Shown one piece after another: positions 21,753 through 60,175 of a stretch of DNA of 60,175 nt. Within the stretch, counting starts at the first letter, position 1. The number at the start of each line of letters is the position of its first letter. Source of the DNA: a virus; IMG/VR virus record IMGVR_UViG_3300044613_002805, positions 1 through 60,175 of that record; one strand, given 5' to 3'. A program made the translations under genes and the position numbers. The notes under the pieces were generated by a model, which searched no databases, had not been told where the DNA came from, and was given only the letters and a program-made list of their open reading frames with translations.

Positions 21753-22124
21753 ATGGCATTTCCAGCTAATTTTAATATTAACTACTACCGTGGTGACACG
21801 TACGAGTTTAAGATCTACCCGAAGCTAACCAATGGGCAAAGCTTTAGCCTAGAAGGCTATGACAGAATTAATGGTGTTAAATTTACTATCTCTACTGAGA
21901 GAGGTATTGATGGTCGACCAACCAAGGTAGAGGCTTATGCCGAAATCTCTCTAGACAGAACGCATATTACTTGTGCGATAAGACCAGACGATGGCGATGC
22001 ACTAGATGCAACAAGAGAGTATGTCTATGACGTTGAAATCAACAAAACAGATTCGCCATACAACAAAGTCTTTACACTCCTTACTGGAAACCTATCAATA
22101 ACAGATCAAGTAACTGGGGCATAA
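21753..22124 (+). CDS. Minor tail/baseplate protein, RGD paralogue family (copy 2)
   Basis: A 123-residue protein with FNINYYRGDTYEFKIYP near the start, homologous in layout to the genes at 20548 and 27204. Likely a beta-sandwich attached to the tail tip. Leaderless start. Confidence 0.6.
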   Translation: MAFPANFNINYYRGDTYEFKIYPKLTNGQSFSLEGYDRINGVKFTISTERGIDGRPTKVEAYAEISLDRTHITCAIRPDDGDALDATREYVYDVEINKTDSPYNKVFTLLTGNLSITDQVTGA

Positions 22125-35424: not shown

Positions 35425-35434
35425 TTGGTGGAAA

Positions 35435-36139
35435 ATGGAAAACGTCGAAGACATTGCTAAAAGAATTAACGAGTACTACACGATTAACGAACAAACCTGG
35501 TCATCTGTAGAGGAGCTGTCACCTGGTATATTTGTTTACCACGATGTGCTTCCTACAGACATGAATATCATAAATAGGCTTGAAGAAGTTCTAGACGATA
35601 AGACAAACTATTATAACTATATGGAAGCAATGGTGGGGTATGGCACTAAGATGCCAGAATACCGTGACTGTTGGGATTTCAAGTATAAGAAAACAGATAT
35701 TATGCATGATCCGTCTCCAGCATCTCAAAAGCTCCAGCAGTTGTGGCAAGATGTTTATGACAAAGAAATCGCAGCAGTAAAAGATTACTCAAGACGGTTT
35801 AATGTTGGAGAGCTTCGTTACTGGGAAGCAATGAACTTCGTAAAGTATGGTCCAGGACAGCACTTTCAAGAGCATTCTGACAATGGATATTCCTATAACT
35901 GTGTTGTCTCTTTAGTTGCGTACCCAAATGACAACTACACTGGCGGGGAGTTAGAGTTTAGGCTACAGGGTCTAAAGGTAAAGCCAAGAGCTGGAGATCT
36001 TTTTATCTTCCCATCCAACTATATGTATCCTCACAAGTCATTGCCAGTAGAATCTGGAATAAAGCACTCTATTGTAACAATGCTGGATTATTCAGATAAG
36101 TATCATAATCCAAAGTTCTACCAAGAGACAGGTTCCTGA
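35435..36139 (+). CDS. 2OG-Fe(II) oxygenase (array member 2)
   Basis: A 234-residue paralogue of the preceding gene: H147, D149 (EHSDNGYS), distal H200 (YPHKSLPVESG) and K210 (IKHSIVTM), with LxxYPNDNYTGGELEF. It shares SLPxxSGxKxS with 34666. Its ATG at 35435 follows that gene's stop by 10 bases and its stop overlaps the next start (TGATG). Confidence 0.88.
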   Translation: MENVEDIAKRINEYYTINEQTWSSVEELSPGIFVYHDVLPTDMNIINRLEEVLDDKTNYYNYMEAMVGYGTKMPEYRDCWDFKYKKTDIMHDPSPASQKLQQLWQDVYDKEIAAVKDYSRRFNVGELRYWEAMNFVKYGPGQHFQEHSDNGYSYNCVVSLVAYPNDNYTGGELEFRLQGLKVKPRAGDLFIFPSNYMYPHKSLPVESGIKHSIVTMLDYSDKYHNPKFYQETGS

Positions 36140-36858
36140 TGCCAAAAGTCACAGCCTACACTGGTGGCCACCACGGAAACATAGATCAGCTACCACTACA
36201 CCGTGACTGGATGGATATTACTTTTGATAGACACGCATATCAGTGCTTTCCAATCTCCTTATCAAATAGACTTGGCTGGGGAATTTCCTATCCAGAAGAT
36301 ATCACGTTTATTTGGGACGGGATTAATGATTCTACAGGGGATCACGTAAAGGTTTTGTCTGGGTCTCAGTGGGCACATCCAAATCGTGGTAACAGGACCA
36401 TCAGTTTTTATACTGACCTGACCTTTGTAAAAGAAAATAACGAAAACCTAACTCTTTTAACTATGCCAGTTCCTAATCAGTTTATTAGAGGAGCTCAGTG
36501 TATGACTACGCTTATAAGCACATCTGTTTTACTAGGAGATCTCCCGATTGCTTGGATGATAACAGAACCAAATATTGAAATAACGATACCAGCAAATACT
36601 CCGATTGCCTCTATTTTGCCAATATCTCTCACCGACATTCAGTCACACGAGCTAGAGGTTCGGAATGGAAGGCCAGATTATGAAGATCTTAAATGGCAAG
36701 AAAACATGAGAGACCGTGGTACAGCCAGCCAAGAGAAAAACTCTAAGGGAGAGTGGACACACTTTTACAGAGATGCCGTTGATCACAATGGAAATTCTGC
36801 AGGAAATCACGAAGCTAAAAAGATTCTTATGAAAGTTATAAATAATGCCAAAAATTAA
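36139..36858 (+). CDS. DUF6065-like protein
   Basis: The 239-residue protein shows the layout I associate with DUF6065: a start RDWMDITFDRHAYQCFPISLSNRLGW, ISYPEDITFIWDG, a FYTDLTF strand and ITIPANTPIASILP near residue 150. The function is unknown; relatives occur near 2OG oxygenases in phages and bacteria (from memory, unchecked). It sits between oxygenases and overlaps the next gene by 14 bases, so it is clearly part of the pathway. DUF6065 assignment is tentative. Confidence 0.6.
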   Translation: MPKVTAYTGGHHGNIDQLPLHRDWMDITFDRHAYQCFPISLSNRLGWGISYPEDITFIWDGINDSTGDHVKVLSGSQWAHPNRGNRTISFYTDLTFVKENNENLTLLTMPVPNQFIRGAQCMTTLISTSVLLGDLPIAWMITEPNIEITIPANTPIASILPISLTDIQSHELEVRNGRPDYEDLKWQENMRDRGTASQEKNSKGEWTHFYRDAVDHNGNSAGNHEAKKILMKVINNAKN

Positions 36859-37570
36859 ATTTTTAGCAAACAGGGGATGGCTATCTGGAAAAGATCCATC
36901 AACGCCAGAGCCAGTATCTAAGAGTCTGCCAGAATGGTACACGTCTGCGGATAGGTTCTACAAGGGCCCAGATGGAACAAGTTTTATTGGGGCGGATGGC
37001 GGAAAGGTTCCAACCTGGAAGGCTTGTCCAGCAATATATGACATTTTTATTACTGGCTATGTATACAGAACTCCATGCGACATTGAGTTCTTCCTTGACA
37101 GCAAGAATGAGATTTCAGCCAAGGTTTTAGATCCTAAATACTCTGACTTTATTCAGTTTAGAGATCCAATGCCTCAGTTTGAGCATCCAAAGGGATATTA
37201 CAAGAAGCATTTTGCCTGGTACCCAGATTGGGCTGTAGCTACACCAAAAGGCTATAGCGTACTATATTCTCAGCCATTCGGTAGGTATGACTTACCGTTT
37301 ATGACAACAAGTGGAATTGTAGACAACGACAAGGTGAATCTGCCAGGAACCTTCCCATTCTTTATACAAGAAGGGTGGACTGGCGTAATTCCAGCGGGAA
37401 CGCCATATTCTCAGATGATACCATTTAAGAGAGAAGATTGGGAGTCTGAATACGAGTTTGACTCTGGCCTTTCTATAATGAAAAAGAACATGGAAAACTC
37501 AAAGAAATATCGAGTTCCTAGCGGTGGTGTATACTTGAAAGAGGTCTGGGAAAGACGAAAGTATGAATAA
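36845..37570 (+). CDS. Conserved phage protein related to the DUF6065-like gene
   Basis: A 241-residue protein with ACPAIYDIFITGYVYRTPCDIEF near residue 60 and the strong motif FFIQEGWTGVIPAGTPYSQMIPFKREDW near residues 180-205. I recall the second motif from T4-like cyanophage and other phage proteins of unknown function. It may share a fold with its neighbour (both end in an ...PAxTPxxxxxP loop). It belongs to the same transcription unit. Confidence 0.6.
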   Translation: MPKIKFLANRGWLSGKDPSTPEPVSKSLPEWYTSADRFYKGPDGTSFIGADGGKVPTWKACPAIYDIFITGYVYRTPCDIEFFLDSKNEISAKVLDPKYSDFIQFRDPMPQFEHPKGYYKKHFAWYPDWAVATPKGYSVLYSQPFGRYDLPFMTTSGIVDNDKVNLPGTFPFFIQEGWTGVIPAGTPYSQMIPFKREDWESEYEFDSGLSIMKKNMENSKKYRVPSGGVYLKEVWERRKYE

Positions 37571-37584
37571 CAAGGAGACTTATA

Positions 37585-38259
37585 ATGGAAAACTTAACTA
37601 ACAATCATATTGTTGATCGGGTTTCAATTACCCCATCAGGATTTTTTGGGTCATCCCCAGAAAACATTGTTACCCTGGAAGACTTTATGACTGATGAGGA
37701 GCTGACAGCTCTAAATGACTTCATCAGAAGCAACGAAAACTGGGATCAGACAGAAACCCATTATAACGAAAACGGAACTGTCATTTATGATGCTGGATAT
37801 TGGGACAATCGTGTAGCAACCTATCCGACTATTCAAAAAACAAATCCAGAAATTCCTGTGATTATTGAAGGAATGGTCGCAAGATTAAAAATAGAGGTAG
37901 ATAAGTTCTTTGGCGTAGACGCTCTTCCTACTAGCCCAGCAATGGTCAGATGGCTTCCAGGCCAACTACAGATGCCACACGCAGATAAAGAGCTTCACAC
38001 GGGACCAGACGCAGGTAAGCCAAATGACTTCCCGTATTACGACATTGCAGGTCTTTTCTACATTAACGATGATTACGAGGGCGGAGAGCTGTATTTTCCA
38101 AACCAAGATATTAGGTTCAAGCCTAAGAGGGGTGCCGCATACTTTTTCCCTGGAGATATGAATTATATTCATGGAGTATCAGAGATTATCTCTGGAATTA
38201 GATATACTGTACCGTTCTTTTGGACCATTCTTTCTCATAAAGAAAAAGAATCTGAGTAA
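37585..38259 (+). CDS. 2OG-Fe(II) oxygenase (array member 3)
   Basis: The 224-residue protein has H132, D134 (PHADKELH), distal H196 (YIHGVSEI) and R206 (IRYTVPFFW), with LFYINDDYEGGELYFPNQDIRFKP. GGAGA precedes ATG 37585. It is a standard P4H-type oxygenase. The next gene begins two bases after its stop. Confidence 0.9.
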   Translation: MENLTNNHIVDRVSITPSGFFGSSPENIVTLEDFMTDEELTALNDFIRSNENWDQTETHYNENGTVIYDAGYWDNRVATYPTIQKTNPEIPVIIEGMVARLKIEVDKFFGVDALPTSPAMVRWLPGQLQMPHADKELHTGPDAGKPNDFPYYDIAGLFYINDDYEGGELYFPNQDIRFKPKRGAAYFFPGDMNYIHGVSEIISGIRYTVPFFWTILSHKEKESE

Positions 38260-38260
38260 A

Positions 38261-38989
38261 ATGCATGGAACAAGCTATATTACCTATATAGATGTTCCAA
38301 ACATAAATGGGACTGCTGGAGTTGACCAAAACAAGGTTATAGAAGTCTTAGACTTTTTAGATAAAGATACTTGCAACAGCTTAATTAATTATATAGATGC
38401 TAACTCGGAAAGATGGAATCATTTTGCCTCATATGAGTATCGACTTGGCAAGTCTCCAAAGCCAGATTTAAGTTTTGAACTATTTGGCCTACCATCAGAT
38501 TTTATAGGTAGGCTAGTCAAAGATATCAAGCAGATGACATCTTCTGTTTTTCTAAAGGAAATCTCTTTAAACACAATCCATGCACAAAGATTTGGCAAAG
38601 GCGGATCTGGCTCGGTACATTCTGATAACACCAATGAGGATGGGTCGGATAGTCATTATGAAATTAATAAGTATGCAGCAATTATCTATCTAAATGACCA
38701 ATATTCTGGTGGAGAGATATATTTTCCAGAACATGACCTGAGCATTAAGCCAAGGGCTGGATCCATGCTTCTTTTTCCAGGAGGAAAGGAAAATCTCCAC
38801 GGCGTAAATGAAATTGTTTCTGGATATCGGCACACAATCATATCTTTTTGGGATTTTGCTGAGTCAAAATACTCAGAAGAACGAGAGTTGTGGAGAGCAG
38901 ATAGCATGAAAAAATGGTCTGATTCTTGGCAGGTAGAGTGGGAAAAAGAATGGAAGTCTAGATGGGCTCTCTTAAATTTCATTGATTAA
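38261..38989 (+). CDS. 2OG-Fe(II) oxygenase (array member 4)
   Basis: I start at ATG 38261, two bases past the previous stop, not at the longer frame from 38171 that overlaps it. The 242-residue protein has H120, D122 (VHSDNTNEDG), distal H180 (NLHGVNEI) and R190 (YRHTIISFW). The C-terminus is Trp-rich (WADSMKKWSDSWQVEWEKEWKSRW), probably a helical tail for binding. Confidence 0.88.
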   Translation: MHGTSYITYIDVPNINGTAGVDQNKVIEVLDFLDKDTCNSLINYIDANSERWNHFASYEYRLGKSPKPDLSFELFGLPSDFIGRLVKDIKQMTSSVFLKEISLNTIHAQRFGKGGSGSVHSDNTNEDGSDSHYEINKYAAIIYLNDQYSGGEIYFPEHDLSIKPRAGSMLLFPGGKENLHGVNEIVSGYRHTIISFWDFAESKYSEERELWRADSMKKWSDSWQVEWEKEWKSRWALLNFID

Positions 38990-39010
38990 TTAGGCTTTTC
39001 CACCATCTGC

Positions 39011-39016
39011 TATAAT
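39011..39016 (+). promoter_or_regulatory. -10 box inside the oxygenase array
   Basis: TATAAT with a 23-base leader holding AAGGAG before ATG 39040, so the array has at least a second entry point. Confidence 0.5.
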
Positions 39017-39039
39017 ATATTTAAAAGGAGTGCTTAAAC

Positions 39040-39786
39040 ATGAACTTGGCCAATAAAAATAGGATTACTAATGATATAGTCCTTTATGAGAATTTTCTAA
39101 CCCCAGAAGAGTCTCAAAAAATTATAAAGATTTTAGACAAGGTTGCTGAAACTGGCAAAATTACATGGATGCCTATATCATTCTATGAGTCTTATTCTTC
39201 TGTTTTGCCACAAGATGGCGATCAGGAGATTCTAGACGAGGGCCTTGATTCTGATATTTTTTCAAAAATTAAGCAGGGAATTATTGAAGCCGTAGCGTCT
39301 GTTCATGACCTAGATCCAAAAACAATTGTTCAGATTGGGTACCACACACAAAAGTGGGAACCAGGGGCATATGCAAGAGTTCATTCTGATAATACAGACG
39401 AACACGGAAACTCTGGGCCGTTTACTAGAAGCAGATACGCAGCATTCCTTTATCTAAATGATGATTTTGGTGGAGGACTTCTAAGGTTTCCATCGCAAGA
39501 TATAGAAATTAAGCCAAAGGTTGGAATGCTTGCAGCATTTGACGGTGGCTTTAACAATATGCATGAGGTTACCTTGATTGAGTCAGGTGTTAGGTATACA
39601 ATTGGATCTTTCTGGGACGACCGTGAAGAAGATGCATACCCTCAAGAGCTGAGAGACGCCTGGGCCGAAGAAATGAAAAAGATTAGAGATGGCCAGGAGC
39701 TGGAAAGAAAAGAGTGGCAGGATCTATTGAAAGAAGGATACAAAATAGACATGCACGGAAATAAGTATAAGGTAGAAGACCTATAA
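39040..39786 (+). CDS. 2OG-Fe(II) oxygenase (array member 5)
   Basis: The 248-residue protein has H115, D117 (RVHSDNTDEHG), distal H175 (MHEVTLIESG) and R185 (VRYTIGSFW). The strand FLYLNDDFGGGLLRFPSQDIEIKP is a clear P4H core. A charged helical tail follows, as in the gene at 38261. Both share HSDNT and W-D-x-R, so they are close paralogues. Confidence 0.9.
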   Translation: MNLANKNRITNDIVLYENFLTPEESQKIIKILDKVAETGKITWMPISFYESYSSVLPQDGDQEILDEGLDSDIFSKIKQGIIEAVASVHDLDPKTIVQIGYHTQKWEPGAYARVHSDNTDEHGNSGPFTRSRYAAFLYLNDDFGGGLLRFPSQDIEIKPKVGMLAAFDGGFNNMHEVTLIESGVRYTIGSFWDDREEDAYPQELRDAWAEEMKKIRDGQELERKEWQDLLKEGYKIDMHGNKYKVEDL

Positions 39787-39787
39787 A

Positions 39788-40447
39788 ATGATTACGTCGT
39801 TAAAAGAAGTATTGAAGAGCAATGGTGTCCATTTTGAAGAGCTAACAGATGAGCTCTTATCTATCGATAACTTCTTGACAGACGAAGAGCTAGACTTTCT
39901 TTGGAGCAAGATTAATGCAGCCTCCCAGTCAGACTGGGAAATTGAATATATGTCAAACCTAAAAAATTTTTGTCTAGAAAAGTTTGGAAGAGAAGACGTA
40001 GACAATCTTGTTGCTGAAGGAAAGTTTGAAATTACCCAGAACTGGGTAGATAAAAATCTTAACATAAGTAAATACCCAGAATATAACATTTTTTATGAAA
40101 GACTCGCCTCGATGGTCAGAGAATCCGATGACTCACTAGAGCTTAGCGGACTCGCAACAATCCAAAGAATGCAGCCAGAGGTTGAGCTAAAGTCTCATAC
40201 TGATCAACATACAGACCCATCTATTAGATACGCAGCTATTGTATACATTAATGACGACTATAACGATGGCGAGTTGTTCTTTAAAAACTTAGGCCTAAAG
40301 CTAAGGCCAAAGCCAAAATGCTTGTTAATTTTTCCAGGTAACGAAAAGTATGAGCATGGAGTAGAATTTGTTTCAGAAGGCCCAATTAGATATGTCCTAG
40401 TGGGCTTTATAAAAGAGGTTGGACACTATCAAAGGAATAGGTACTAA
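39788..40447 (+). CDS. 2OG-Fe(II) oxygenase (array member 6; paralogue of 228)
   Basis: The 219-residue protein has H137, D139 (SHTDQHTDPS), distal H190 (YEHGVEFV) and R201 (IRYVLVGF). It is the closest relative in the window of the enzyme at 228-896: the same FLTDEE start, KFEIT, HTDPS and RY-end. Both have an N-terminal helix with KFG(R/H)(E/D)D. Its ATG follows the previous stop by one base. Confidence 0.9.
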   Translation: MITSLKEVLKSNGVHFEELTDELLSIDNFLTDEELDFLWSKINAASQSDWEIEYMSNLKNFCLEKFGREDVDNLVAEGKFEITQNWVDKNLNISKYPEYNIFYERLASMVRESDDSLELSGLATIQRMQPEVELKSHTDQHTDPSIRYAAIVYINDDYNDGELFFKNLGLKLRPKPKCLLIFPGNEKYEHGVEFVSEGPIRYVLVGFIKEVGHYQRNRY

Positions 40448-40448
40448 T

Positions 40449-41150
40449 ATGAAAAAGCAAGTATTGCATGAAAAGGTTTTCTACTATGAAGATGCCGTTG
40501 AAAACTTCAAAGAGGTTATGGATACAATTAAAGAGTTGGATGAAATAGGTGCATCAGAGGGAAATCCATTATGGCAAGATTGGACATCTTCAAACGATAA
40601 GTCCTTTATATATGGAGAAACTCAGTCATTTGATCTTAATCAGATTAGGCATATGGAAGAGCCATATAGAAGTAAGTCTGAGTTTATCTATATAAGTATC
40701 ATGAAGTCTCTTTACAATGTTTGCAAAGACTATGCTTCGTCAATTGGAGATACCGATGAGCCACGGCTATTTCCAGTTTTCAACATTAAGAAGTACAACA
40801 CTGGTGCCGCAATGGGGGCACACTATGATCAGCTTGATGGAGACAAGACTCTGAGATATTCGTTAGTCATGTATCTAAATGAAGTTCCCGAGGGTGGAGA
40901 AATATCATTTAAATTATCGGACTATGAAGATCACCACCAAGTGGTTAGCCCAGATCTAGACTATGATGTTGCAGTAAAAAATAATCAAATAGACTTCGGG
41001 GTAAAGCCAAGTGCTGGAAGTGTTATTATTTTCCCATCTTCTGCCCCATACTACCATATCGCTCACACAGTCAAGTCTGGTGTTAAGTACATGATTCCTA
41101 GCCACTGGATTCACAATGACATGGACATGAGGGATGGTTGCAGTGTATAA
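40449..41150 (+). CDS. 2OG-Fe(II) oxygenase (array member 7)
   Basis: ATG 40449 is chosen because it follows the previous stop; the longer frame from 40419 overlaps it. The 233-residue protein has H125, D127 (GAHYDQLDGD), distal H206 (YYHIAHTVKSG) and K213 (VKYMIPSHW). An insert (about residues 156-182) is unique to this copy. The end overlaps the next gene by 17 bases. Confidence 0.88.
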   Translation: MKKQVLHEKVFYYEDAVENFKEVMDTIKELDEIGASEGNPLWQDWTSSNDKSFIYGETQSFDLNQIRHMEEPYRSKSEFIYISIMKSLYNVCKDYASSIGDTDEPRLFPVFNIKKYNTGAAMGAHYDQLDGDKTLRYSLVMYLNEVPEGGEISFKLSDYEDHHQVVSPDLDYDVAVKNNQIDFGVKPSAGSVIIFPSSAPYYHIAHTVKSGVKYMIPSHWIHNDMDMRDGCSV

Positions 41151-41991
41151 CTTTGATATTGAAAAAATACAGGACACTGTCTGGGTATTTAAGAAGGCTA
41201 TTAAAAATCCGCAAGACTTCATTGACTATTTTGAGAAAAATAAAGAGTGGAAAGACTGGTATACCTTTGGAAAGCATGCGGAAGGCACTCAGTTTGCCGT
41301 TAAGTTTCAAAATTTTCCAACTATAGAGGAGTGGGAGTATGAAAAAGATCACAACCCACTAGACTTTACAAGAGATGGGTATTTTGAAAATGAGATTAAC
41401 GATCTTTTCTACAATGCTACAAAACTTTATGTAGAGGCAAACGACGTTTCTCTTGACAACTGGGTTTATGAAGGCTGGAACATTGCAAAATACGAAGAAA
41501 AACCAGACAGTCCGCTAGAGTACGCCATGGTGCATCATACAGATTTTCAGAGAGAGTTTGCATACAATCCTGGATCTAAGTTTGGGGTAACTGCTGTATT
41601 TTACCTAAATGATGATTATGAAGGCGGAGATGTTATGTTTAGGTTCCTAGACGAAAACGATACATCTATAATCAAAGAAGACTATACCTATAAGCCGCAG
41701 GCTGGAGACATTGTTGTATTTATGTCTGGACACCCACACTATCACGGTGTAAAGAAGGTTTCTAAGGGTGAAAAATATATAGTTAGAACTTATTGGAGAT
41801 ACCTTTACGAGGGGCATCCTCTTTGGCTAAAGCTTCAAGAGAAATATGGGCCAGATATCTGGAAGCAACTAGAAGATGAGAGGCTAAAGTTTAATAGAAA
41901 TAGCGACAACATCAAGATGGTCAACAACATCCCATTCTGGGTTGAATTTGAAGAATATTATAAAAAAGAGATAGAGTCTTTAAATCTATGA
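41134..41991 (+). CDS. 2OG-Fe(II) oxygenase (array member 8)
   Basis: The 285-residue enzyme is the largest of the set: H135, D137 (VHHTDFQRE), distal H204 (PHYHGVKKV) and K214 (EKYIVRTYW), with VFYLNDDYEGGDVMF. A C-terminal Trp/Lys-rich helix (EGHPLWLKLQEKYGPDIWKQLEDERL) is added. ATG 41134 lies inside the previous gene. Confidence 0.88.
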   Translation: MVAVYNFDIEKIQDTVWVFKKAIKNPQDFIDYFEKNKEWKDWYTFGKHAEGTQFAVKFQNFPTIEEWEYEKDHNPLDFTRDGYFENEINDLFYNATKLYVEANDVSLDNWVYEGWNIAKYEEKPDSPLEYAMVHHTDFQREFAYNPGSKFGVTAVFYLNDDYEGGDVMFRFLDENDTSIIKEDYTYKPQAGDIVVFMSGHPHYHGVKKVSKGEKYIVRTYWRYLYEGHPLWLKLQEKYGPDIWKQLEDERLKFNRNSDNIKMVNNIPFWVEFEEYYKKEIESLNL

Positions 41992-42656
41992 AAACGGCCA
42001 TTGTTACTGGATCAAGCAAAGGCGTAGGGCTGGCCACAGTCAAGCTTCTTGCTGAGAATGGTTATCGGGTTATCGCTGTGTCCAGAGACTTGTCAAGGGT
42101 CTCAGAATTGGCATCTGAAAATATTGAGGTCTATAAGCTAGATATTACTCAGCCAAAAGAGATAAAAGAATTCTTTGAAAAGTATAAAGACATAACCCTA
42201 GATCTTCTTGTCAATAATGCTGGCGGTGGATCAAGCCCAACCAGCATCATTAATGAAACAATGGATAACTTCAGGGTTGCCTATGACATAAACGTTTCTG
42301 GTCCAATGTACCTATCTCAGCTTTTTGTTCCATGCTTAAAAAAATCGGACTCCCCGACAATTATTTTTGTGACATCTCTTTCTGGAAAGGTGCCATTTAG
42401 AGGAGGCGGTAACTATACCAATGCAAAAAGAGGCATGATGGCTTTGGTCGACACCATGAGAATGGAGTTTCCACAGTACGGTATTAAGGTTACAGAGATA
42501 TGCCCAGGAACAATAGATACACAGGTTGAGAAAAAAGATAACGCTCTAACGGCAGAAGACATGGCGGAAGCTATCAGATGGGTGTCCTCTTTGCCAAAAC
42601 ACTTCAACATAAATCACCTGGAAGTAAGCAATATTTTTAACAGTAAGTATATGTGA
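41988..42656 (+). CDS. Short-chain dehydrogenase/reductase (SDR)
   Basis: The 222-residue protein has the nucleotide-binding TGSSKGVG (residues 7-14), NNAG (76-79), a Ser near 130, and the catalytic Tyr143-x-x-x-Lys147 (YTNAK). SDRs oxidise or reduce alcohol/carbonyl groups using NAD(P). Its position between oxygenases suggests it acts on a hydroxylated product, such as turning an alcohol into a ketone (inference). Coupled to both neighbours. Confidence 0.88.
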   Translation: MKTAIVTGSSKGVGLATVKLLAENGYRVIAVSRDLSRVSELASENIEVYKLDITQPKEIKEFFEKYKDITLDLLVNNAGGGSSPTSIINETMDNFRVAYDINVSGPMYLSQLFVPCLKKSDSPTIIFVTSLSGKVPFRGGGNYTNAKRGMMALVDTMRMEFPQYGIKVTEICPGTIDTQVEKKDNALTAEDMAEAIRWVSSLPKHFNINHLEVSNIFNSKYM

Positions 42657-42660
42657 TAGC

Positions 42661-43227
42661 ATGGAGATTAACAAATTACACGAAGATGTTTATGAGATTA
42701 ACAACTTTCTTTCTGGAGAAGAGTTCCAAGAAGTCCTTAATGTCATAAATGCACTTAGCGAAAAAGACTGGTTTTCCGAAGACACGGCACAAGACAAAGA
42801 TTTTGCAGATTTTTGGTACGGGAAAAACCTAGAGTTTAAAACAGACAACATTTTTAAAGAAATTAATAATAAAATGGAGTCACTATTTGAGTCCTACCAC
42901 TACTACCCATCTAATCTTCTTTTGCAAAGGTACAAGATAGGTGACTTTATTCAGCCACATACTGATCAGTGGAATCCAGATTTGCCATACTATATCGGAT
43001 ATGGTTTTTGCTTATATTATAATGACGACTATGAGGGCGGAGAGCTAGAATATCCAGAGCTGGGTATAACTGTTAAGCCAAAAGCAAATTCTCTGTACAT
43101 TCATGGCGGACACATAAGGCACGGATCAAAGCCAGTATTAAATGATAAAATAAGATACTTTTCAACTGTTTTTGTAAGGGGAACAGACGAGAAACCAACA
43201 AGACTAAAAGGAGATTTGTTTAAATGA
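42661..43227 (+). CDS. 2OG-Fe(II) oxygenase (array member 9)
   Basis: The shortest member, 188 residues, with H100, D102 (PHTDQWNPD), distal H154 (IRHGSKPV) and R165 (IRYFSTVF), and YYNDDYEGGELEYPELGITVKP. It lacks an N-terminal extension. Its stop overlaps the next start by four bases. Confidence 0.88.
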   Translation: MEINKLHEDVYEINNFLSGEEFQEVLNVINALSEKDWFSEDTAQDKDFADFWYGKNLEFKTDNIFKEINNKMESLFESYHYYPSNLLLQRYKIGDFIQPHTDQWNPDLPYYIGYGFCLYYNDDYEGGELEYPELGITVKPKANSLYIHGGHIRHGSKPVLNDKIRYFSTVFVRGTDEKPTRLKGDLFK

Positions 43228-43805
43228 CACACCAGATAACACAGCAAGAGCACTTTATTCTAGAAATCTTAAAAAAGAAGAAAAATGGGTACTATGTTGA
43301 GCTAGGAGCAGCACACTATAGCGAAGGAAATAATACCTACCTATTAGAGCAAGATTATGACTGGAAGGGTGTGTCTTTTGAAATTATAGACTCTATGCGA
43401 GAAGAGTTTAACTTAAATAGAATGAATCCCTGCATGGGGGATGCCCTATCGTTTAACTATATTGAATACTTTGAAAAAAATGAGTTCCCAAAGCAGATAG
43501 ACTATCTTCAACTAGATATTGATGCAGGATATGATTTCGCTGGGAGACCAGTAGGAAATAGTCACTGGACACTACAGGGACTTGTCGCTGTGCCCCTAAA
43601 TACTTATAGATTTAGCATTATTACGTTTGAGCATGACGCAAACATGTACTGGAAAAACAGTACAATTAGAGATGCTCAAAGAGAAATCCTAGATTCTTTT
43701 GGATATTCTTTGGTACACAGGTCATTTCACGAAGACTGGTGGGTAGATCCAAACGTAATTGGTCATGGGGAATACCGAGACTTCTTACACTGGCAAACAC
43801 TCTAG
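43224..43805 (+). CDS. Class I methyltransferase-like protein, FkbM-type
   Basis: The 193-residue protein shows the Rossmann methyltransferase pattern: motif I GYYVELGAAHYSEGNN (residues 21-36), then GVSFEI (strand 2), a DAL step and DYLQLDIDAG (strand 4). FkbM-type enzymes methylate hydroxyls on sugars or small molecules. With the oxygenases and the SDR next to it, it could cap hydroxyl groups (inference). SAM binding is expected, not shown. Confidence 0.65.
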   Translation: MTHQITQQEHFILEILKKKKNGYYVELGAAHYSEGNNTYLLEQDYDWKGVSFEIIDSMREEFNLNRMNPCMGDALSFNYIEYFEKNEFPKQIDYLQLDIDAGYDFAGRPVGNSHWTLQGLVAVPLNTYRFSIITFEHDANMYWKNSTIRDAQREILDSFGYSLVHRSFHEDWWVDPNVIGHGEYRDFLHWQTL

Positions 43806-43833
43806 CTTATTGCAGGGCATCTTGGCAATCTGG

Positions 43834-43839
43834 TATAAT
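43834..43839 (+). promoter_or_regulatory. -10 box
   Basis: TATAAT with a 32-base leader holding AGGAG before GTG 43872. Confidence 0.5.
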
Positions 43840-43871
43840 AAATATATTCAGCACTTGCAAAAGGAGTATAT

Positions 43872-44567
43872 GTGGACTATCAAGAAGCACTTGACAAATA
43901 TCTGGTAAGCCAGGTATCTATTTATCCACCATTTTTCTCTCCACTATGGATTAAGACCTCTAACTTTAATCCTAAGATATATGCTGAAAACATTTTTTAT
44001 TATGAAAATGTTGTTTTTCATCCAGATCAAGTTTTAGCTGCGATAGAAGAATCAGAAATAATCATAAAGGATACTGATGCCATTGGAAAGTGGCAGCCAT
44101 GGGTGGGTAAGGACGACATAGTCTTGCCAGACGGAAGGAATAGCGATTACGTATTTGGAGAGACAAAGACTACAAATCCCAAAAAGTATTTGACTAGTTC
44201 TCCAGCCGTACAGTTTGCTTTTGGACAAATTAAGAATTCTTTGACATTTACTACAGACCACTATGCGTCTTTGCTGGGAATAGATCCAGGAAAGATGTCA
44301 ACAATTATGATAAGCAAATACTTTACTGGAGCAGAACTAGGGCTTCATACCGACTCATATAGGGACAATGCCTATCTATCAGCTGTCCTGTATTTAAATG
44401 ATGACTATGAAGGCGGAGAAATCGTTTTCCCTAATCAGGATGTAAAGATTAAACCTTCGGCTGGAAGCATTATTGTCTTCCCATCGCTAGAGCCATTTTT
44501 CCATGAGTCTTTAAAGGTCACTTCTGGAGAGAAATATATGTGCTCTGTGTTCCTTTTTAAGGACTAA
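43872..44567 (+). CDS. 2OG-Fe(II) oxygenase (array member 10)
   Basis: The 231-residue protein has H159, D161 (LHTDSYRD), distal H211 (FFHESLKV) and K221 (EKYMCSVF), with VLYLNDDYEGGEIVFPNQDVKIKP. It starts at GTG 43872, five bases after AGGAG. Last oxygenase, directly before the fibre gene at 44597. Confidence 0.9.
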   Translation: MDYQEALDKYLVSQVSIYPPFFSPLWIKTSNFNPKIYAENIFYYENVVFHPDQVLAAIEESEIIIKDTDAIGKWQPWVGKDDIVLPDGRNSDYVFGETKTTNPKKYLTSSPAVQFAFGQIKNSLTFTTDHYASLLGIDPGKMSTIMISKYFTGAELGLHTDSYRDNAYLSAVLYLNDDYEGGEIVFPNQDVKIKPSAGSIIVFPSLEPFFHESLKVTSGEKYMCSVFLFKD

Positions 44568-44596: not shown

Positions 44597-45595
44597 ATGT
44601 CATTTGTTAGAGTCCAGCTGCGAAGAGGTTTTGCCGAAGAGTGGGAAGAGGGTAACCCAATCCTTGCCCCAGGAGAAATTGGTGTAGAGCAGGATAGCGG
44701 AAAGTTTAAGCTCGGTAACGGTATCGATGCTTGGCTAGATCTACCATATGCGCAAGCAACGGCATACGACATTGCTGTTGAAAATGGATTTACTGGAACA
44801 GAACAGCAGTGGCTAGACTCTCTAGCAACAAACTTGTCGATTGCATCTGTTCAAACCATTGACCATGAGGATCCAGCCCAGGTTATTCTTGGAGGAACTC
44901 ATCCAAACAGAACGCTTACTTTTTTAATTCCAAAAGGCCAGCCAGGTCCCACAGGTGCAACAGGTGCTCAGGGGCCTAGGGGTGAAGCTGGAGCAGCTGG
45001 ACCGACTACCATTACCTGGCAAGGCGTATGGAGTCCAGCAGTCGATTATGGTATAAACGATGCTGTCTATCACGACGGATTTTCTTGGTTCTCTGCAGTA
45101 GATCCAAATGTCGGACATGAGCCAGATGAGACATCGTCATTTTGGTACAAAGTTAACCTAAATGTTATTGGAGAAGAGGGGCCCCAAGGACCTGCTGGAC
45201 CTGCTGGACCAGGCGTAGATAATTTTTCAGAACTTGGAGATGTAGACGTTGTTTCTGTTCAAAATGGAGACAGCATTATTTATGACTCTGCAACACAAAA
45301 GTGGGTTCCAGGAGCACCAGCTTCAAATCTTAATGACCTTTCAGATGTAAATATTACGACGGTAGCTAATAACGATTCTCTTATTTATAACTCATCAACA
45401 CAGACCTGGCAAGCTGGAACAACCCCAAGATCTCTTGCTAGCCTATCTGATGTAAACGCAACTTCTCCGCAAGATGGTCATATTTTGATGTATAACTCTG
45501 GGAACGCAAAGTGGGAAACAGGAATGAGAATTTTTGTGCAGCCCCCAACGCAGACTCCGTCTAATGCAACAAATGGTGATCTCTGGATTTGGTAG
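44597..45595 (+). CDS. Tail fibre with Mtd-N-type head and collagen-like segments
   Basis: A 332-residue protein. Residues 1-50 (MSFVRVQLRRGFAEEWEEGNP...GEIGVEQDSGKFKLGNG) match the Mtd-N-type domain at 31119. Two collagen-like runs follow: GPTGATGAQGPRGEAG near residues 115-135 and GPQGPAGPAGPG near 195-206, then three SLSDVN-type repeats (ELGDVDVV, DLSDVNIT, SLSDVNAT). A fibre that could be a substrate for the neighbouring oxygenases. Confidence 0.8.
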   Translation: MSFVRVQLRRGFAEEWEEGNPILAPGEIGVEQDSGKFKLGNGIDAWLDLPYAQATAYDIAVENGFTGTEQQWLDSLATNLSIASVQTIDHEDPAQVILGGTHPNRTLTFLIPKGQPGPTGATGAQGPRGEAGAAGPTTITWQGVWSPAVDYGINDAVYHDGFSWFSAVDPNVGHEPDETSSFWYKVNLNVIGEEGPQGPAGPAGPGVDNFSELGDVDVVSVQNGDSIIYDSATQKWVPGAPASNLNDLSDVNITTVANNDSLIYNSSTQTWQAGTTPRSLASLSDVNATSPQDGHILMYNSGNAKWETGMRIFVQPPTQTPSNATNGDLWIW

Positions 45596-46523: not shown

Positions 46524-49500
46524 ATGACTACTCCCTCTAATCTGTATGCAGAAAAGGTTTTTGCAGAACACCCGATATCGCTTTGGCCACTTGATGATCG
46601 GGTGGACTACGTCTCTCTCATATCTGAAAATCAAAGAAACATCAATAGCGAATTTTGGCAGGTATCTGGGGCATCTTCTGTAGGAAATGAGGTAGTTTTT
46701 GGAACACCTTTTCCAGATAGCATAACTTCAAAGATTGCTGGAGAATTCGTAGAATCAGAGCAAATAGAGTCTTTTTCCATAGATTGCCTTAGCTCAAACA
46801 TATTTAGATTTAGTCAGCTAAATCAAGACATGGGCACGGTTTCTATTGGCACCTATGTTTTTTCTAAAAGCCTGTATGTAAATTCGTATCAAATCGGATA
46901 CGCCTATTGGCCAGATGGTCAGGCTGCCCCAACAATAGTTTCAAAAAAATTCGCAAGCACAATCTCCAACCAATGGGTATTTATTTCGGACACATTTCAG
47001 ATACCGCAAGAGCTACAGAATACAGACATTCGGCTATTTTTGAGCATCGAGTACATAAATGCTGGAAATCAAGACTCTGACTATGAATTTTTTGTAAATG
47101 GAATAACTGTCGGGCAGTGGTCGGAAGAGTTTAACGCCACATCTCTTGGTATAGAGCCAGATCCTATTCCAACAGATATTGTTTCTAGTGTTGGAGATAC
47201 TGATGTTCTTGTAAGTCAGGCAAGGTCATATGGGCTACAGGATGCGTCTGGTTATTATTTTGTACAAGACAAAAAAATCTTAGCAAAAAATCACGGTGTA
47301 CCGCTGGTCTTTGGATCTGACAATGTCACAAGGATTTATCCAAGGCCAAACTCAAAGCCATCACTTATTCTTCCAGGTTTTGGATTTTTAAATGACTGGG
47401 GAAGGTATCAAGAGGCAACCCTAGAAATGTGGTTGCGAGTAGACTCTCAAGCCACTTCTGCAAAAAGAATTTTTGGGCCAGTTTCTTCGGAAGACGGAGT
47501 TTACCTAGATGGGCCATTTGTAAAGATAAAGATTGGTCCAAATTCTGCATCTCACTATTTGGGGGAATGGTTTAGACCAATTTTACTAAACTTAAGGATT
47601 AAGCCAAACCTCGCTTCTCTTCTTATAAATGGAGAAGAGGTGATATCAATGCAGATTGACATGCCAAGCATTCAGCTACCAGAGCAGTTAGACTCTAATG
47701 GAAAAAGCCAGGACTGGATTGGTTTCTATGCCTATGACGATGTCAGGCTGGTAGAAGTAGACTGTGTCTCTATTTATCCGTACTGGGTTTCGGATATCGT
47801 TGCAAAAAGAAGATGGGCATACGGACAGGCTGTAGAGATTCCAGAAAACGCAAACACCTCGTTCGGCGGAACAACCGTAGCTATAGATTACTCTGTTGCT
47901 GACTATACAAATAACTATACGTATCCAGAGTTTGGAAAGTTTGCGCAGGGCATTGTTGAAAACCTAGATGTGTCAAGAAACACTATTGAGCTGCCATCTT
48001 ACGTTATCCCAGAAATAAGATTCCTGGAACCAACAGATAACATCCAGAGCTGGTATGCCGAGCAGGATGAGCTTCAGGATGATGGTAGGCCATTCTTTAC
48101 CTTTGAGGGCAAAGAGTCTTTTATGTTTATTGACAAGATTAACTTTATGCAACAAAAGACAAGCGCTATTTATGGAATTTTTAGTATTGAAGAGTACTCT
48201 ACATCAGAACAGATTTTATTTAAGATAGAAAATGTAAATAATAGCAATTACTTTTCAGTTTCCATTATTGGAGATCGAATAAACTATAATCTTTTTTATA
48301 ATGGAAATCTAGAAAGACTATACTCAGACTCAATTATTGATGCAACCAGCATCTTTGCGGGAATTAATTTAGATGGTTTAGTCAGAGCCTTTGGTGGAAA
48401 TGTCTCTGCGTTTTTTGGCAATAGGTCACAGCTAAGGATTTATATTGTTGGAGATTCAGACTTTTCAAAAACATTTCAGGGCAAAATCTACAAGATTGGA
48501 TTCTGTACTACAAACAACTTTAAAAAGCTCAGCTCTTTGTTTACGTTTTCGACACAGCCAGAAATTCCAGAAATCTGGGATGTTGGAGACTCCTACTTTG
48601 GAAACGATCCAGCATTCTGGAACATGGTAATCGACGCTGGTAGGGTTGATTCTTTTCAGAATGACGGAGACAGCACTCAGCAAATATATGACCACGTCGC
48701 AAGCTATACCTTGAGGCCAATCTATAAATTTGGAGAGTACTCTCTTGATATTTCTGTGTCATCAAGCTGGCAAGACTACTTGCCACTAAACTATTTTGCT
48801 CAATTTGTTGACGACAGCTTTGGCAATAAGTACTATGACTTAGACTTCTTACAGTTTAACTCAAGCGTCCCAGCGCTGCCTGGCATGGGAAATCTAGTGT
48901 CCGATACTAAGCAGTATTCGATTAGACAGTACATAACCTTTCAATTTTTAAGAAATGGTGCAAACGCAAATCTAGAAAGCTTTACTCAAACTGTGTCTCC
49001 AGTAAATGGAGTCATCGATGCTGGAAACTCATTAGACTGGATAAACACAAAGTATTTGGTAGAAAACGGAACCATTATTTATCCACCCTCATCGGCTTCT
49101 GTGTCAAGTCTAGCAATTGTTACCCATATAGAAATAGAAGCAGAGGGAATTTCTGCTAACCCAATAAAGATCAGAAGGCTGGAGTATGCCTCCCAGGCTA
49201 TTAACGAAATCTCTCCAAACTTTATAGGTACCAAATTCGGCACTAAGATTATCCCATATAAGAAGTACGGAAGCTACTTTGACTATGTTTCTAGGAATCC
49301 ATTTAGGATTTACAAGGGGACAACTCCGCATCTTTACCTTACAAAGGACAGCGGAATCCAAAAGGTAGGCTCAGACTCTGCTCTAGTTGATAGGGGCCTA
49401 ATTCTACAGATTAATCAAAACCTGGCAGAATCCTATAAGGTTTTTGCTATGCAAATGTTTATAAGGTTCCCAGACAGCGAATTCTCCCAAACGCCTCGTC

Positions 49501-50096
49501 TGATCTTTGAAGTTCAGGGCAAGGAGGATTTTATTAAGTTCTTTGCCGTTGCTAGCGATGCAAGCGGAAGGCGTGGAAGACTTTACGGGATTAATGCTAA
49601 AACTGGAACAATTGAAAACGGGCTATTATTCTATATAAATGGGAAAAAGGTAAGAGACGCAGTAATTGATGCACAAGACTGGGCAGTAATTGGTATCAAT
49701 TTTGCAAGAATTCTTGATTTTGATAATTATCCTGGAGCAATTCGAATACTTTCTGGTGCAATTATTAACAATGTCTCTCATTATCAGTCTACAAGCTTGC
49801 AAGAAATACAGAGACAGCTGTACAGGCCATGGTTCAGAGTTAGGCAAATCGGGCTACAAGAAGATGGCCAAAGTCTAAATTGGGTATATTGGCAGGGTGG
49901 GTTTACCTGGAACGGCGTACTTGTTGCCAATGAAGTCAAGCTATTTGGGTTCGATCCGTCAGATGTTTATAAAAGATACACTGGAACTAATAAATTTATA
50001 ATTGATGATGAAGTCAATAGTAGTGTTTTCCGTGGATACGGCTATTCTGTCTATAGAAATGTAGAATGGAACTCTTCTGTCATAAAACCACTTTAA
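46524..50096 (+). CDS. 1190-residue minor tail protein, LamG-like type
   Basis: The protein begins NLYAEKVFAEHPISLWPLDD, the start of a class of large actinophage tail proteins with concanavalin/LamG-type beta-sandwich domains (ALW-x-L-D-D). The remaining 1100 residues are Asn/Asp/Ser-rich and strand-forming, probably several such domains (W-x-x-x-F-x-x-x-R-I-x-x at several places). It probably binds surface sugars at the tail tip. AAGGTGA precedes ATG 46524. Confidence 0.75.
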   Translation: MTTPSNLYAEKVFAEHPISLWPLDDRVDYVSLISENQRNINSEFWQVSGASSVGNEVVFGTPFPDSITSKIAGEFVESEQIESFSIDCLSSNIFRFSQLNQDMGTVSIGTYVFSKSLYVNSYQIGYAYWPDGQAAPTIVSKKFASTISNQWVFISDTFQIPQELQNTDIRLFLSIEYINAGNQDSDYEFFVNGITVGQWSEEFNATSLGIEPDPIPTDIVSSVGDTDVLVSQARSYGLQDASGYYFVQDKKILAKNHGVPLVFGSDNVTRIYPRPNSKPSLILPGFGFLNDWGRYQEATLEMWLRVDSQATSAKRIFGPVSSEDGVYLDGPFVKIKIGPNSASHYLGEWFRPILLNLRIKPNLASLLINGEEVISMQIDMPSIQLPEQLDSNGKSQDWIGFYAYDDVRLVEVDCVSIYPYWVSDIVAKRRWAYGQAVEIPENANTSFGGTTVAIDYSVADYTNNYTYPEFGKFAQGIVENLDVSRNTIELPSYVIPEIRFLEPTDNIQSWYAEQDELQDDGRPFFTFEGKESFMFIDKINFMQQKTSAIYGIFSIEEYSTSEQILFKIENVNNSNYFSVSIIGDRINYNLFYNGNLERLYSDSIIDATSIFAGINLDGLVRAFGGNVSAFFGNRSQLRIYIVGDSDFSKTFQGKIYKIGFCTTNNFKKLSSLFTFSTQPEIPEIWDVGDSYFGNDPAFWNMVIDAGRVDSFQNDGDSTQQIYDHVASYTLRPIYKFGEYSLDISVSSSWQDYLPLNYFAQFVDDSFGNKYYDLDFLQFNSSVPALPGMGNLVSDTKQYSIRQYITFQFLRNGANANLESFTQTVSPVNGVIDAGNSLDWINTKYLVENGTIIYPPSSASVSSLAIVTHIEIEAEGISANPIKIRRLEYASQAINEISPNFIGTKFGTKIIPYKKYGSYFDYVSRNPFRIYKGTTPHLYLTKDSGIQKVGSDSALVDRGLILQINQNLAESYKVFAMQMFIRFPDSEFSQTPRLIFEVQGKEDFIKFFAVASDASGRRGRLYGINAKTGTIENGLLFYINGKKVRDAVIDAQDWAVIGINFARILDFDNYPGAIRILSGAIINNVSHYQSTSLQEIQRQLYRPWFRVRQIGLQEDGQSLNWVYWQGGFTWNGVLVANEVKLFGFDPSDVYKRYTGTNKFIIDDEVNSSVFRGYGYSVYRNVEWNSSVIKPL

Positions 50097-57816: not shown

Positions 57817-57871
57817 TATTCTTGAGGAAACATCGCCCACTTATTCCATATAGAAAAAAGAGGTGAAAATT

Positions 57872-58504
57872 ATGGCATATACACGTGGTAATAGCTCACA
57901 GATTATCGTCGGTGCAGCAGCTCTCTTTACATACGAAGAGGGTACGCTAGCCGAGGGTGATCTACCAGCATACGTTGACAACGTGTCCTACAAGGACACT
58001 TTGACTGGAACCCAGCAGGCTCCAACGGACTTCCGTAACGTCGGTTACACAATGAACGGTCTAGAGATCGTCTTCCAGCCAGACTTCGGTGAAGTTCAGG
58101 TTGACCAGGTTCTAGACGTTGCCAAGCTGTACAAGCAGGGTATGCAGGTAAACCTAAATACTACATTCGCTGAAGCCACTCTAGAGAATCTTCTATTTGC
58201 AGTTGCAGGTAAGGATGATGATCTAACTTCTGTTTCTGGCAACCCAACAATGAACCTGTCCGCAGGTGACATTGGTGAGTGTCCAGTAGAGCGTGGTCTT
58301 GTTGCAGTTGGTCCAGGTACTGGAGATTGTGCAGCATCTGATCAGATTGAGCGTGTTTACGTAGCTTACCGTGCACTTTCTATCGAGAGTGTTACAGTAG
58401 GTGCCAAGCGTGACGAAGCAACAATGTTCGAGGTATCGTTCCGTCTGCTTCCAAACGACAGCGCATCCTACGGTAAGATTGTAGACCGTACAATCCCAGC
58501 CTAA
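57872..58504 (+). CDS. Major tail protein
   Basis: I use ATG 57872, preceded by AGAGGTGA; an earlier GTG at 57863 sits in the ribosome site. The 210-residue protein has a tail-tube pattern: DNVSYKDTLTGTQQAPTDFRNVGYTMNGLEIVFQPDFGEV, and a conserved closing IESVTVGAKRDEATMFEVSFRLLPND. Its codons favour CGT, GGT and AAG like the capsid gene. A terminator follows. Confidence 0.85.
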   Translation: MAYTRGNSSQIIVGAAALFTYEEGTLAEGDLPAYVDNVSYKDTLTGTQQAPTDFRNVGYTMNGLEIVFQPDFGEVQVDQVLDVAKLYKQGMQVNLNTTFAEATLENLLFAVAGKDDDLTSVSGNPTMNLSAGDIGECPVERGLVAVGPGTGDCAASDQIERVYVAYRALSIESVTVGAKRDEATMFEVSFRLLPNDSASYGKIVDRTIPA

Positions 58505-58527
58505 TCAGCTAAAATATAACTTAATAG

Positions 58528-58565
58528 AACTGCCCTGGCATTTGCTTGCTGGGGCAGTTTGCTTT
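58528..58565 (+). terminator. Terminator after the major tail gene
   Basis: AACTGCCC (58528-58535) and GGGCAGTT (58552-58559) form an 8-bp stem with further inner pairing, followed by TGCTTTT. Confidence 0.7.
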
Positions 58566-58568
58566 TGG

Positions 58569-58574
58569 TATACT
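58569..58574 (+). promoter_or_regulatory. -10 box for a leaderless start
   Basis: TATACT is 6 bases before ATG 58581. Confidence 0.6.
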
Positions 58575-58580
58575 ATATAG

Positions 58581-59276
58581 ATGCCTAATAAAGTCTATGA
58601 TTCTTCAACAATAAGTCTTGTTGATGGCACTGAGGTATTCCTTACACCGCTAAAGATTAAATATCTTAGAGAATTTATGCAGGTTTTTGAAACAATTGAC
58701 TCTGCAAAGGGGGAGGACGAAAGTATAGCGATATTGCTAGATTGTGCAAGAATCTCTATGAAGCAATACTTTCCATCCCTTAAGACAATAGAAGATGTTG
58801 AAGATAACATAGACATTAAGGCTCTTTATAAGGTTTTAGAGGTCGCTGCTGGCATTAAGATTAATGAAGACTCCTCTGAAACGGTAAAGGATCAAGCAAC
58901 AGAAAGCTCTCCAAAGTGGAGTGAGATGGACCTAGTAGCTTTAGAGTCTGAGGTTTTTCTTTTGGGCATATGGAAAGACTATGATGAGTTAGAGTCATCA
59001 CTTTCTATGCCAGAACTAACCACTACTTTGAATGCAAAAAGAGAGTCTGATTATCGTGAGAAAAAATTTCTAGCAGCAATGCAAGGCGTAGACCTTGATA
59101 AGCAAACAGGAAAAGACCAGGATAATGCCTGGGAAAAGATGAAGGCAAAAGTCTTCAGTAAGGGCAAAACATCTAATCCAAATGATATAACAGCGCTTCA
59201 GGGGCATGCTGCTCAGAAAGCTGGATTTGGTATTGGAATGGGCCTTGGATATGAAGATTTAACCAAAAAATCGTAG
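58581..59276 (+). CDS. Long tail-assembly chaperone (gpG plus gpT-like in one frame)
   Basis: The 231-residue protein starts with the short chaperone domain (VDGTEVFLTPLKIKYLREFMQVFETI...ILLDCARISMKQYFPSL) and continues, after a linker, with the T-type region known from frameshifted actinophage chaperones (DLVALESEVFLLGIWKDYDELESSLSMPELTTTL...DYREKKFLAAMQGVDLD). Normally the T region needs a programmed frameshift; here it is fused in frame. Confidence 0.85.
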   Translation: MPNKVYDSSTISLVDGTEVFLTPLKIKYLREFMQVFETIDSAKGEDESIAILLDCARISMKQYFPSLKTIEDVEDNIDIKALYKVLEVAAGIKINEDSSETVKDQATESSPKWSEMDLVALESEVFLLGIWKDYDELESSLSMPELTTTLNAKRESDYREKKFLAAMQGVDLDKQTGKDQDNAWEKMKAKVFSKGKTSNPNDITALQGHAAQKAGFGIGMGLGYEDLTKKS

Positions 59277-59286
59277 TCCTGTATGC

Positions 59287-59292
59287 TATAAT
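59287..59292 (+). promoter_or_regulatory. -10 box
   Basis: TATAAT with a 29-base leader holding GGGAGGA before ATG 59322. Confidence 0.5.
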
Positions 59293-59321
59293 AAAAGCAT
59301 CCAAAGAAATCGGGAGGAATA

Positions 59322-59648
59322 ATGACCGTTACAATAAACGGAGAAAAAGTTATTAAGCTAATTAGCGGAGAAGAGATTGCCGTTAGGCCACTAAAGATCT
59401 CACTACTTCGTAGCTTTATGAAGAAATTTGCTGAAATCGCAAAGGTAGCAGATGACAATGACAAGTCTATGGACGTCCTCATGTCTTGTGTTCAGATTGC
59501 GATGAAGCAGTACAAGCCAGAACTTGCAGAAGATTTGGCAAAGCTAGAGGAAAGTTTGGACCTTCCAACAGTATACAAGATTGTAGAAGAGGCTTCTGGA
59601 ATCAATCTTGGTGATACTGCTTTGATGGGAGCCATTCCTACCAGCTAG
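59322..59648 (+). CDS. Short tail-assembly chaperone (gpG-like)
   Basis: The 108-residue protein is a paralogue of the first half of the preceding chaperone: VIKLISGEEIAVRPLKISLLRSFMKKFAEI and LMSCVQIAMKQYKPELAEDL align with VDGTEVFLTPLKIKYLREFMQVFETI and LLDCARISMKQYFPSL. It stops without a T region. It has its own promoter and GGGAGGA. The tape measure gene follows. Confidence 0.85.
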   Translation: MTVTINGEKVIKLISGEEIAVRPLKISLLRSFMKKFAEIAKVADDNDKSMDVLMSCVQIAMKQYKPELAEDLAKLEESLDLPTVYKIVEEASGINLGDTALMGAIPTS

Positions 59649-59670: not shown

Positions 59671-60175
59671 ATGGCTGATATAGAATCCAATATTAGATTT
59701 GGAGTAGACACTTCAGATGCCATCGCATCTATCAAGATGCTTCAGGCACAAGTATCAGCCTTCCAAAAGCAGATGGCCTCGTCATCGGCTGCCAATGCAG
59801 AATCTGCACGGAAGCTGAGACGGGGTCTTCTCGATGACCTGAATGCAACAGGCCAATGGTCTGCATCAATCAAAACAATCAAGAGTACTTCTGACTCTTT
59901 TACAAATGCCCTAGAGAAAAACAAGCTCTCTATGGGAGAGTACTTTAAATATGGTGCCTCTCAGGTTGGCGGATTTAGAAATATATTCACCAAAGAATTT
60001 AATACAATCGAGAAGGTTGCACGTGAGCGTGTCAAAGACCTGCAGACTCAATACATTGGTCTTGGAAGAGATGCCAATGGCGCACTAAAATCAATTGCTG
60101 TTAGACCGCTAAGACTAGACATGGAAAGTCTTGCAACGCAGACAGCTATGAATGCTCAGCGTCAACAGGTTTTTA
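59671..60175 (+). CDS. Tape measure protein, N-terminal part, cut by the right edge
   Basis: From ATG 59671 the frame stays open to the window end (168 codons). The sequence MADIESNIRFGVDTSDAIASIKMLQAQVSAFQKQMASSSAAN is typical of tape-measure starts, with helical Ala/Gln/Lys-rich sequence. Its position after the chaperones supports this. The length sets tail length in such phages but cannot be seen here. Confidence 0.85.
   Translation, partial: MADIESNIRFGVDTSDAIASIKMLQAQVSAFQKQMASSSAANAESARKLRRGLLDDLNATGQWSASIKTIKSTSDSFTNALEKNKLSMGEYFKYGASQVGGFRNIFTKEFNTIEKVARERVKDLQTQYIGLGRDANGALKSIAVRPLRLDMESLATQTAMNAQRQQVF

Follow-up and report, generated by a model that had tools for sequence, protein, structure and literature searches.

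A fused long and a separate short tail assembly chaperone gene in a phage lineage with frameshifting close relatives

Known chaperone systems and the layout of the locus

The frameshift that yields G and GT is a textbook example of recoding, retained across long-tailed phages. In phage lambda, a -1 frameshift yields the tail assembly chaperones gpG and gpGT, two products that share G and of which the long one carries T (Xu, Hendrix and Duda 2004; PMC5009743). Lambda requires a G:GT ratio of about 30:1; this ratio is crucial (PMC5009743), and the frameshift is kept on its account. A different arrangement has been described for some T4-like phages, which have a short chaperone gene and a fused long one instead of frameshifting (Vladimirov, Gautam and Davidson 2022, Virology 566:9, as cited in PMC10885494). 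The nearest cultured relatives of the virus studied here are ~130 kb Streptomyces phages of the Stanwilliamsviridae; a few Rhodococcus phages are more distant kin. In both groups a single G gene is followed by T in a different frame, and in Yaboi, Phredrick and Francesca the long chaperone is annotated as a two-piece join, the way a frameshift is written.

The window that we analysed is a 60,175-nt metagenomic fragment (GC content 41%) of the virus record IMGVR_UViG_3300044613_002805, and all features of the locus lie on its plus strand. A gene resembling that of the major tail protein (57863..58504; "protein with Ig domain", phrog_2175, 1.3e-32) probably starts at an ATG three codons in, behind GAGG; its counterpart in the Streptomyces relatives is annotated as the major tail protein. 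It is followed by GT (58581..59276), a 231-aa long chaperone in which G and T are fused in one frame: residues 1-100 match phrog_10504 (3.6e-21) and residues 130-197 match phrog_10474 (5e-17). The T domain (58914..59276) is a homologue of the T ORF that the Stanwilliamsviridae have in the -1 frame, with 42% identity to Gilson T in the alignment, and the G–T junction (58854..58913) is where the slippery heptamer lies in frameshifting relatives. The next gene, G2 (59322..59648), encodes a short chaperone of 108 aa that matches phrog_10504 (4.7e-20), has no T part and aligns with the G half of GT at 38% identity across 89 residues (E 6e-19). The first-pass annotation had described the first gene as a G+T fusion in one frame and the second as a paralogue of the G half only; both descriptions, and the exact coordinates, were borne out. 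Downstream, the 5′ part of a tape-measure-like gene (59671..60174) runs off the window; this ORF has no family match and owes its name to the position of the tape measure in the Streptomyces relatives. GT and G2 therefore sit between a major-tail-protein-like gene and an ORF in the tape-measure position.

The identification of GT and G2 as chaperones follows from homologues annotated as tail assembly chaperone, from the position of the genes and from short and long predicted products that share an N-terminal domain. Neither protein matched a chaperone family in Pfam or NCBIfam, a profile search of solved structures with both gave no relevant match, and Foldseek against the PDB returned nothing under E 0.001. 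The predicted folds (mean pLDDT 74.7 for GT and 70.7 for G2) lend weak support. Most of the viral proteins with a name that they match are chaperones, among them A0A6J5QVP5 ("Tail assembly chaperone", 7.8e-5), N15 GT (E 0.011) and Enterococcus EfaCPT1 (0.021). The HK97 chaperone (2ob9) came second in the VIA list with a Z of 4.2, too low to carry weight alone. By analogy with lambda, G would bind the tape measure and T the tail tube.

The locus resembles the lambda type in its place between tail tube and tape-measure-like genes and in having two products that share G, the long one with T, but it comprises two genes with separate start signals and has neither a recurring junction heptamer nor a -1 frame T ORF. 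The Stanwilliamsviridae (Gilson, Yaboi, Karimac, Phredrick) have homologous G and T domains, at 36-46% identity, and the same neighbours; they differ in that their G is single and has a Shine-Dalgarno, and that their T, entered at CCCAAAY or CCCGGAA, lies in the -1 frame. As far as the T4-like two-gene chaperones are described in the citing paper, they too pair a separate short gene with a longer fusion of short and downstream parts, for which no frameshift is needed. Those phages are myoviruses, likened here by description, whereas the GT/G2 lineage sits beside frameshifting close relatives and has distinct conserved start signals at each gene. Presumably the two arrangements arose independently. 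Two-gene chaperones are thus already known as a kind; what is new is that this lineage is a separate one, that it has close relatives which frameshift, and that its two genes carry conserved start signals of contrasting kinds.

Recurrence of the layout and loss of the slippery site

To see how widely the layout recurs, we assembled a first set of 164 loci, consisting of at least 160 IMG/VR loci from two scans, two cultured phages and two views of the window. The fusion and the short G were found together in 156 of them; the other eight were the two cultured single-G phages, five loci cut at the end of the stretch and one locus (L147) with a broken frame. A further scan, seeded with the Gilson T domain, added closer single-G relatives. 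Each scan supplied its best 80 matches, and all IMG/VR locus counts are to be read as "at least". After deduplication there were at least 122 unique loci with fusion and short G and at least 62 with single G and T, the latter including cultured Streptomyces phages and one Rhodococcus phage. Each of 16 records of 53-124 kb contained exactly two G domains.

The layout of fusion plus short G is therefore real and conserved, since its presence in 156 of 164 loci, and in at least 122 unique ones, is not the product of chance or of faulty assembly. An assembly error or wrong gene calls might be suspected in a metagenomic fragment, and one of the 160 IMG/VR loci, L147, does have a 1-nt break in G1 at a contig end; this explanation is refuted by the agreement of at least 122 unique loci from many metagenomes, and its probability is negligible. 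We also considered L147 as an evolutionary intermediate (broken G1, T and G2) and rejected it: the 1-nt break lies inside the G domain at the contig end, no slippery site was seen at the break, and the locus is close to the intact L143. We treat the break as a sequencing or assembly fault. A search of genome contigs found no relative and hence no host link; we infer the host of the window virus from its relatives, which infect Streptomyces and Rhodococcus.

Every one of the 62 single-G loci has T in the -1 frame, and the two frames overlap by 22-94 nt. The junction heptamer is C CCA AAN or C CCG GAA in 61 of them (CCCAAAC 33, CCCAAAT 15, CCCAAAA 1, CCCGGAA 12), and the exception, Rhodococcus phage Francesca, has G GGA AAA at the same place. 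CCCAAAN is of the canonical X XXY YYZ type, from which CCCGGAA departs.

None of this is retained in the fusion lineage. In GT, T continues in the frame of G1 instead of forming an overlapping -1 frame ORF, and no conserved in-frame slippery heptamer was found at the end of G in the 122 GT or the 122 G2 genes. CCCAAAN is absent from the junction of all 122 fusions, occurs in six of them away from it, and is absent from all 122 short genes. The junctions of 88 representatives of the fusion contain no more than a sporadic scatter of in-frame XXXYYYZ heptamers, 16 altogether: TTTAAAT is the commonest with six, AAAAAAG occurs three times, and five further kinds occur once or twice. As a separate way of producing T, we considered an internal start for T alone, at the methionine at residue 116 of GT, and rejected it because this residue is not conserved (SGLDL, WENLDL).

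Could the G–T linker of GT nevertheless still yield a short form, through a frameshift or transcriptional slippage that has gone unrecognised, with G2 as an extra, specialised chaperone? The sporadic heptamers in some junctions, together with other XXXYYYZ sites elsewhere in the gene, would offer places for such recoding, and the divergence of G1 and G2 to about 42% identity in one phage would fit a specialised G2. Yet no single column of the junction shows the same slippery heptamer in more than a few of the 88 fusions; counted by alignment column, the most frequent heptamers fall in the T half and reach at most 16 of 88. The junction is 38 to 49 codons long, its longest homopolymer is six or fewer in 86 of 88 fusions, and the ancestral slippery site is gone from all fusions. 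We regard continued recoding in GT as very unlikely.

Trees of the two domains place the loss of frameshifting in a single lineage. In the T-domain tree (127 rows, a quick search on few columns, rooted on Francesca), all 78 fusion rows form one clade (SH-aLRT 98) nested among the frameshifting rows. In the G-domain tree (205 rows), G1 (SH-aLRT 89), G2 (99) and single G each fall on one side of a branch, and rooting on Francesca makes G1 plus G2 one clade. The trees rest on 106-119 columns with long branches flagged, and we read from them these splits and not the finer branching order. On the simplest history, the gene apparently duplicated once and the frameshift was lost once.

Both copies are under purifying selection, at unequal rates: median pairwise dN/dS is 0.044 for G2, 0.099 for the G half of GT and 0.070 for the T half, and mean clade depth is 0.57 for G2 against 1.03 for G1. 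The strong constraint on G2 argues that it is translated and needed. With an identity of only about 40% to G1, G2 may have a role of its own and may not be a plain replacement. A further reading goes as far as to see two distinct chaperones today, which might, for instance, serve separate stretches of a very long tape measure; the ratio would then not be what the duplication is for. The single split and the unequal rates are compatible with it, but the lineage in which the second copy arose is also the one that lost the slippery site and the -1 T frame, which is what is expected if that copy took over the supply of the short form. We consider such a division of labour unlikely, if somewhat less so than continued recoding in GT.

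We conclude that the two genes very probably make the long (GT) and the short (G) chaperone without recoding, duplication and separate start signals having replaced the -1 frameshift. It had been proposed from the window's letters that duplication supplies the short form in place of frameshifting. This holds up at the sequence level against the wider set: the slippery-site search that might have overturned it yielded nothing conserved at the junctions or in the short genes, the phylogeny of the N-terminal domains points to a single duplication (a branch sets each copy apart) and to one replacement of the frameshift in a single clade, and the layout recurs in at least 122 loci. In the history we propose, the ancestor would have frameshifted at CCCAAAY and its chaperone gene would have been duplicated; the first copy would then have lost the slippery site and joined G and T in one frame, and the second would have lost both T and the slippery site.

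Start signals of the two genes

The start signals of GT and G2 are conserved and of different kinds. A terminator-like hairpin with a T-run stands 5′ of GT in 86 of 88 representatives, against 2.7% in shuffles; in the window it has 14 pairs and a T-rich tail (58527..58560) and lies between the major tail protein gene and the fusion. It is followed by an extended -10 element (TGGTATACT, 58566..58574) whose hexamer ends 6 nt 5′ of the ATG. The motif TGnTATA(A/C)T, with the hexamer ending exactly 6 nt before the ATG, occurs 5′ of GT in 93 of 106 loci, a count that admits a few related hexamers; among the 88 representatives, 42 have TATACT as the hexamer and 29 have TATAAT. In a wider set of 119 GT genes, every one starts with ATG, none has a Shine-Dalgarno and 100 carry the leaderless signature.

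These features match the leaderless pattern of actinobacteria, in which a Shine-Dalgarno is missing and TANNNT begins about 12 nt before the start codon (Zheng 2011, PMC3160421): the -10 box of GT in the window lies at -12 and is not accompanied by a Shine-Dalgarno. The GT mRNA is accordingly predicted to be leaderless. GT differs from the actinobacterial genes, as predicted from sequence, in having an extended TG motif, in belonging to a phage and in lying directly behind a terminator. The strict signature (TGnTATAMT ending 6 nt before ATG) marks 5 of the 2058 ATGs in the window, all of them ORF starts; besides that of GT, the ORF starts with the signature are at 21753, 27204 and 34666 on the plus strand and at 6760 on the minus strand. 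This suggests a virus genome with leaderless and Shine-Dalgarno genes mixed throughout; because the signature stands at other window genes, the leaderless start would be a general trait of the genome and not a device specific to GT.

G2, which lies 28-80 nt from GT, has a promoter-like element and a ribosome-binding site of its own. The extended -10 was found in 103 of 106 loci, where 0.7 would be expected from shuffles, and its hexamer is TATAAT in 84 of 88. The window has the consensus TGnTATAAT (TGCTATAAT, 59284..59292), followed by the Shine-Dalgarno GGGAGGA (59312..59318). Across 122 loci, a -10 lies at -20 to -55 in all and a Shine-Dalgarno-like motif is present in 121. That G2 is expressed is thus probable, given a dN/dS of about 0.04, the Shine-Dalgarno in 121 of 122 loci and a near-consensus extended -10 in 85 of 88, a prediction drawn from selection and start signals. 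A sigma-70 scan requiring both hexamers found sites no commoner than in shuffles, and the promoters here would be of the extended -10 kind. The separate promoters of the earlier reading stand as conserved sequence signals at both genes, the promoters themselves being predicted.

The single G of the frameshifting relatives has a Shine-Dalgarno in 61 of 62 loci, a -10 at -20 to -55 in 61 of 62 and the leaderless signature in none of 62. Since this start resembles that of G2, it is G2 that would have kept the ancestral kind of start and GT that would have changed. The automatic choice of start for the single G fell on TTG in 36 of 62 loci (L176 and L181 are examples); GT and G2 of the duplicated lineage have ATG starts throughout.

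These signals suggest how the two proteins could be made in unequal amounts. The terminator would end transcription of the major tail protein gene, and the extended -10 promoter directly behind it would start a separate, leaderless GT mRNA. G2 would be made from the internal consensus promoter with its strong Shine-Dalgarno and also by read-through of the GT transcript, because no terminator was found between GT and G2 in the 88 representatives. Terminator, promoters, read-through and Shine-Dalgarno would all favour the short protein over the long one, in line with the ratio that the chaperones need, so that promoters and ribosome sites together may set the short:long ratio. In mycobacteria, leaderless mRNAs have lower predicted transcript production and no systematic difference in protein per mRNA from leadered ones (PMC7148126). 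Leaderlessness alone therefore need not lower GT, and the promoter may matter more.

The ratio might instead be set after transcription. G2 would then be the only working short chaperone, stability or translation of one common transcript would fix the proportions, and the internal promoter-like site would be minor. The gap of 28-80 nt and the missing terminator would let one transcript span GT and G2, and the Shine-Dalgarno by itself could favour G2. An extended -10 retained in nearly all loci, far above the shuffle expectation and with TATAAT in 84 of 88, is however hard to explain without selection for a promoter. We hold this post-transcriptional setting of the ratio to be doubtful, although it carries more weight than the other alternatives raised above. 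We favour, with some reserve, the reading that the lineage swapped recoding for control of transcription and initiation, with an insulated, leaderless long gene behind a weaker promoter and a leadered short gene behind a consensus promoter, and that the ratio, not frameshifting, is what selection acts on.

The lineage amounts to a natural experiment, with close relatives that do and do not frameshift and an ancestral heptamer that is gone where the gene was duplicated, through which the reasons for keeping recoding can be tested directly. It is also a warning to annotators and to frameshift predictors that two chaperone genes need not imply a missed frameshift; a missed frameshift has been presumed for 342 SEA-PHAGES genomes (PMC10885494).

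Other genes of the window

Upstream of the tail genes, about a dozen consecutive genes of 190-285 aa occupy 34666-44567, and eight of the ten tested match the Pfam 2OG-Fe(II) oxygenase family (PF13640). Several share YLNDDYEGGE...KP.AG motifs, and one gene of the array (36139-36858) matches DUF6065. Such a tandem array is unusual in a phage. Just upstream of the head genes, the gene at 46524-50096 (1190 aa) had no match in PHROG, in Pfam or by tblastn against a phage collection. The oxygenase array is flanked by two genes, at 31119-33602 (827 aa) and 44597-45595 (332 aa), whose products have an N-terminal Mtd_N (major tropism determinant) domain and are likely to be receptor-binding proteins.
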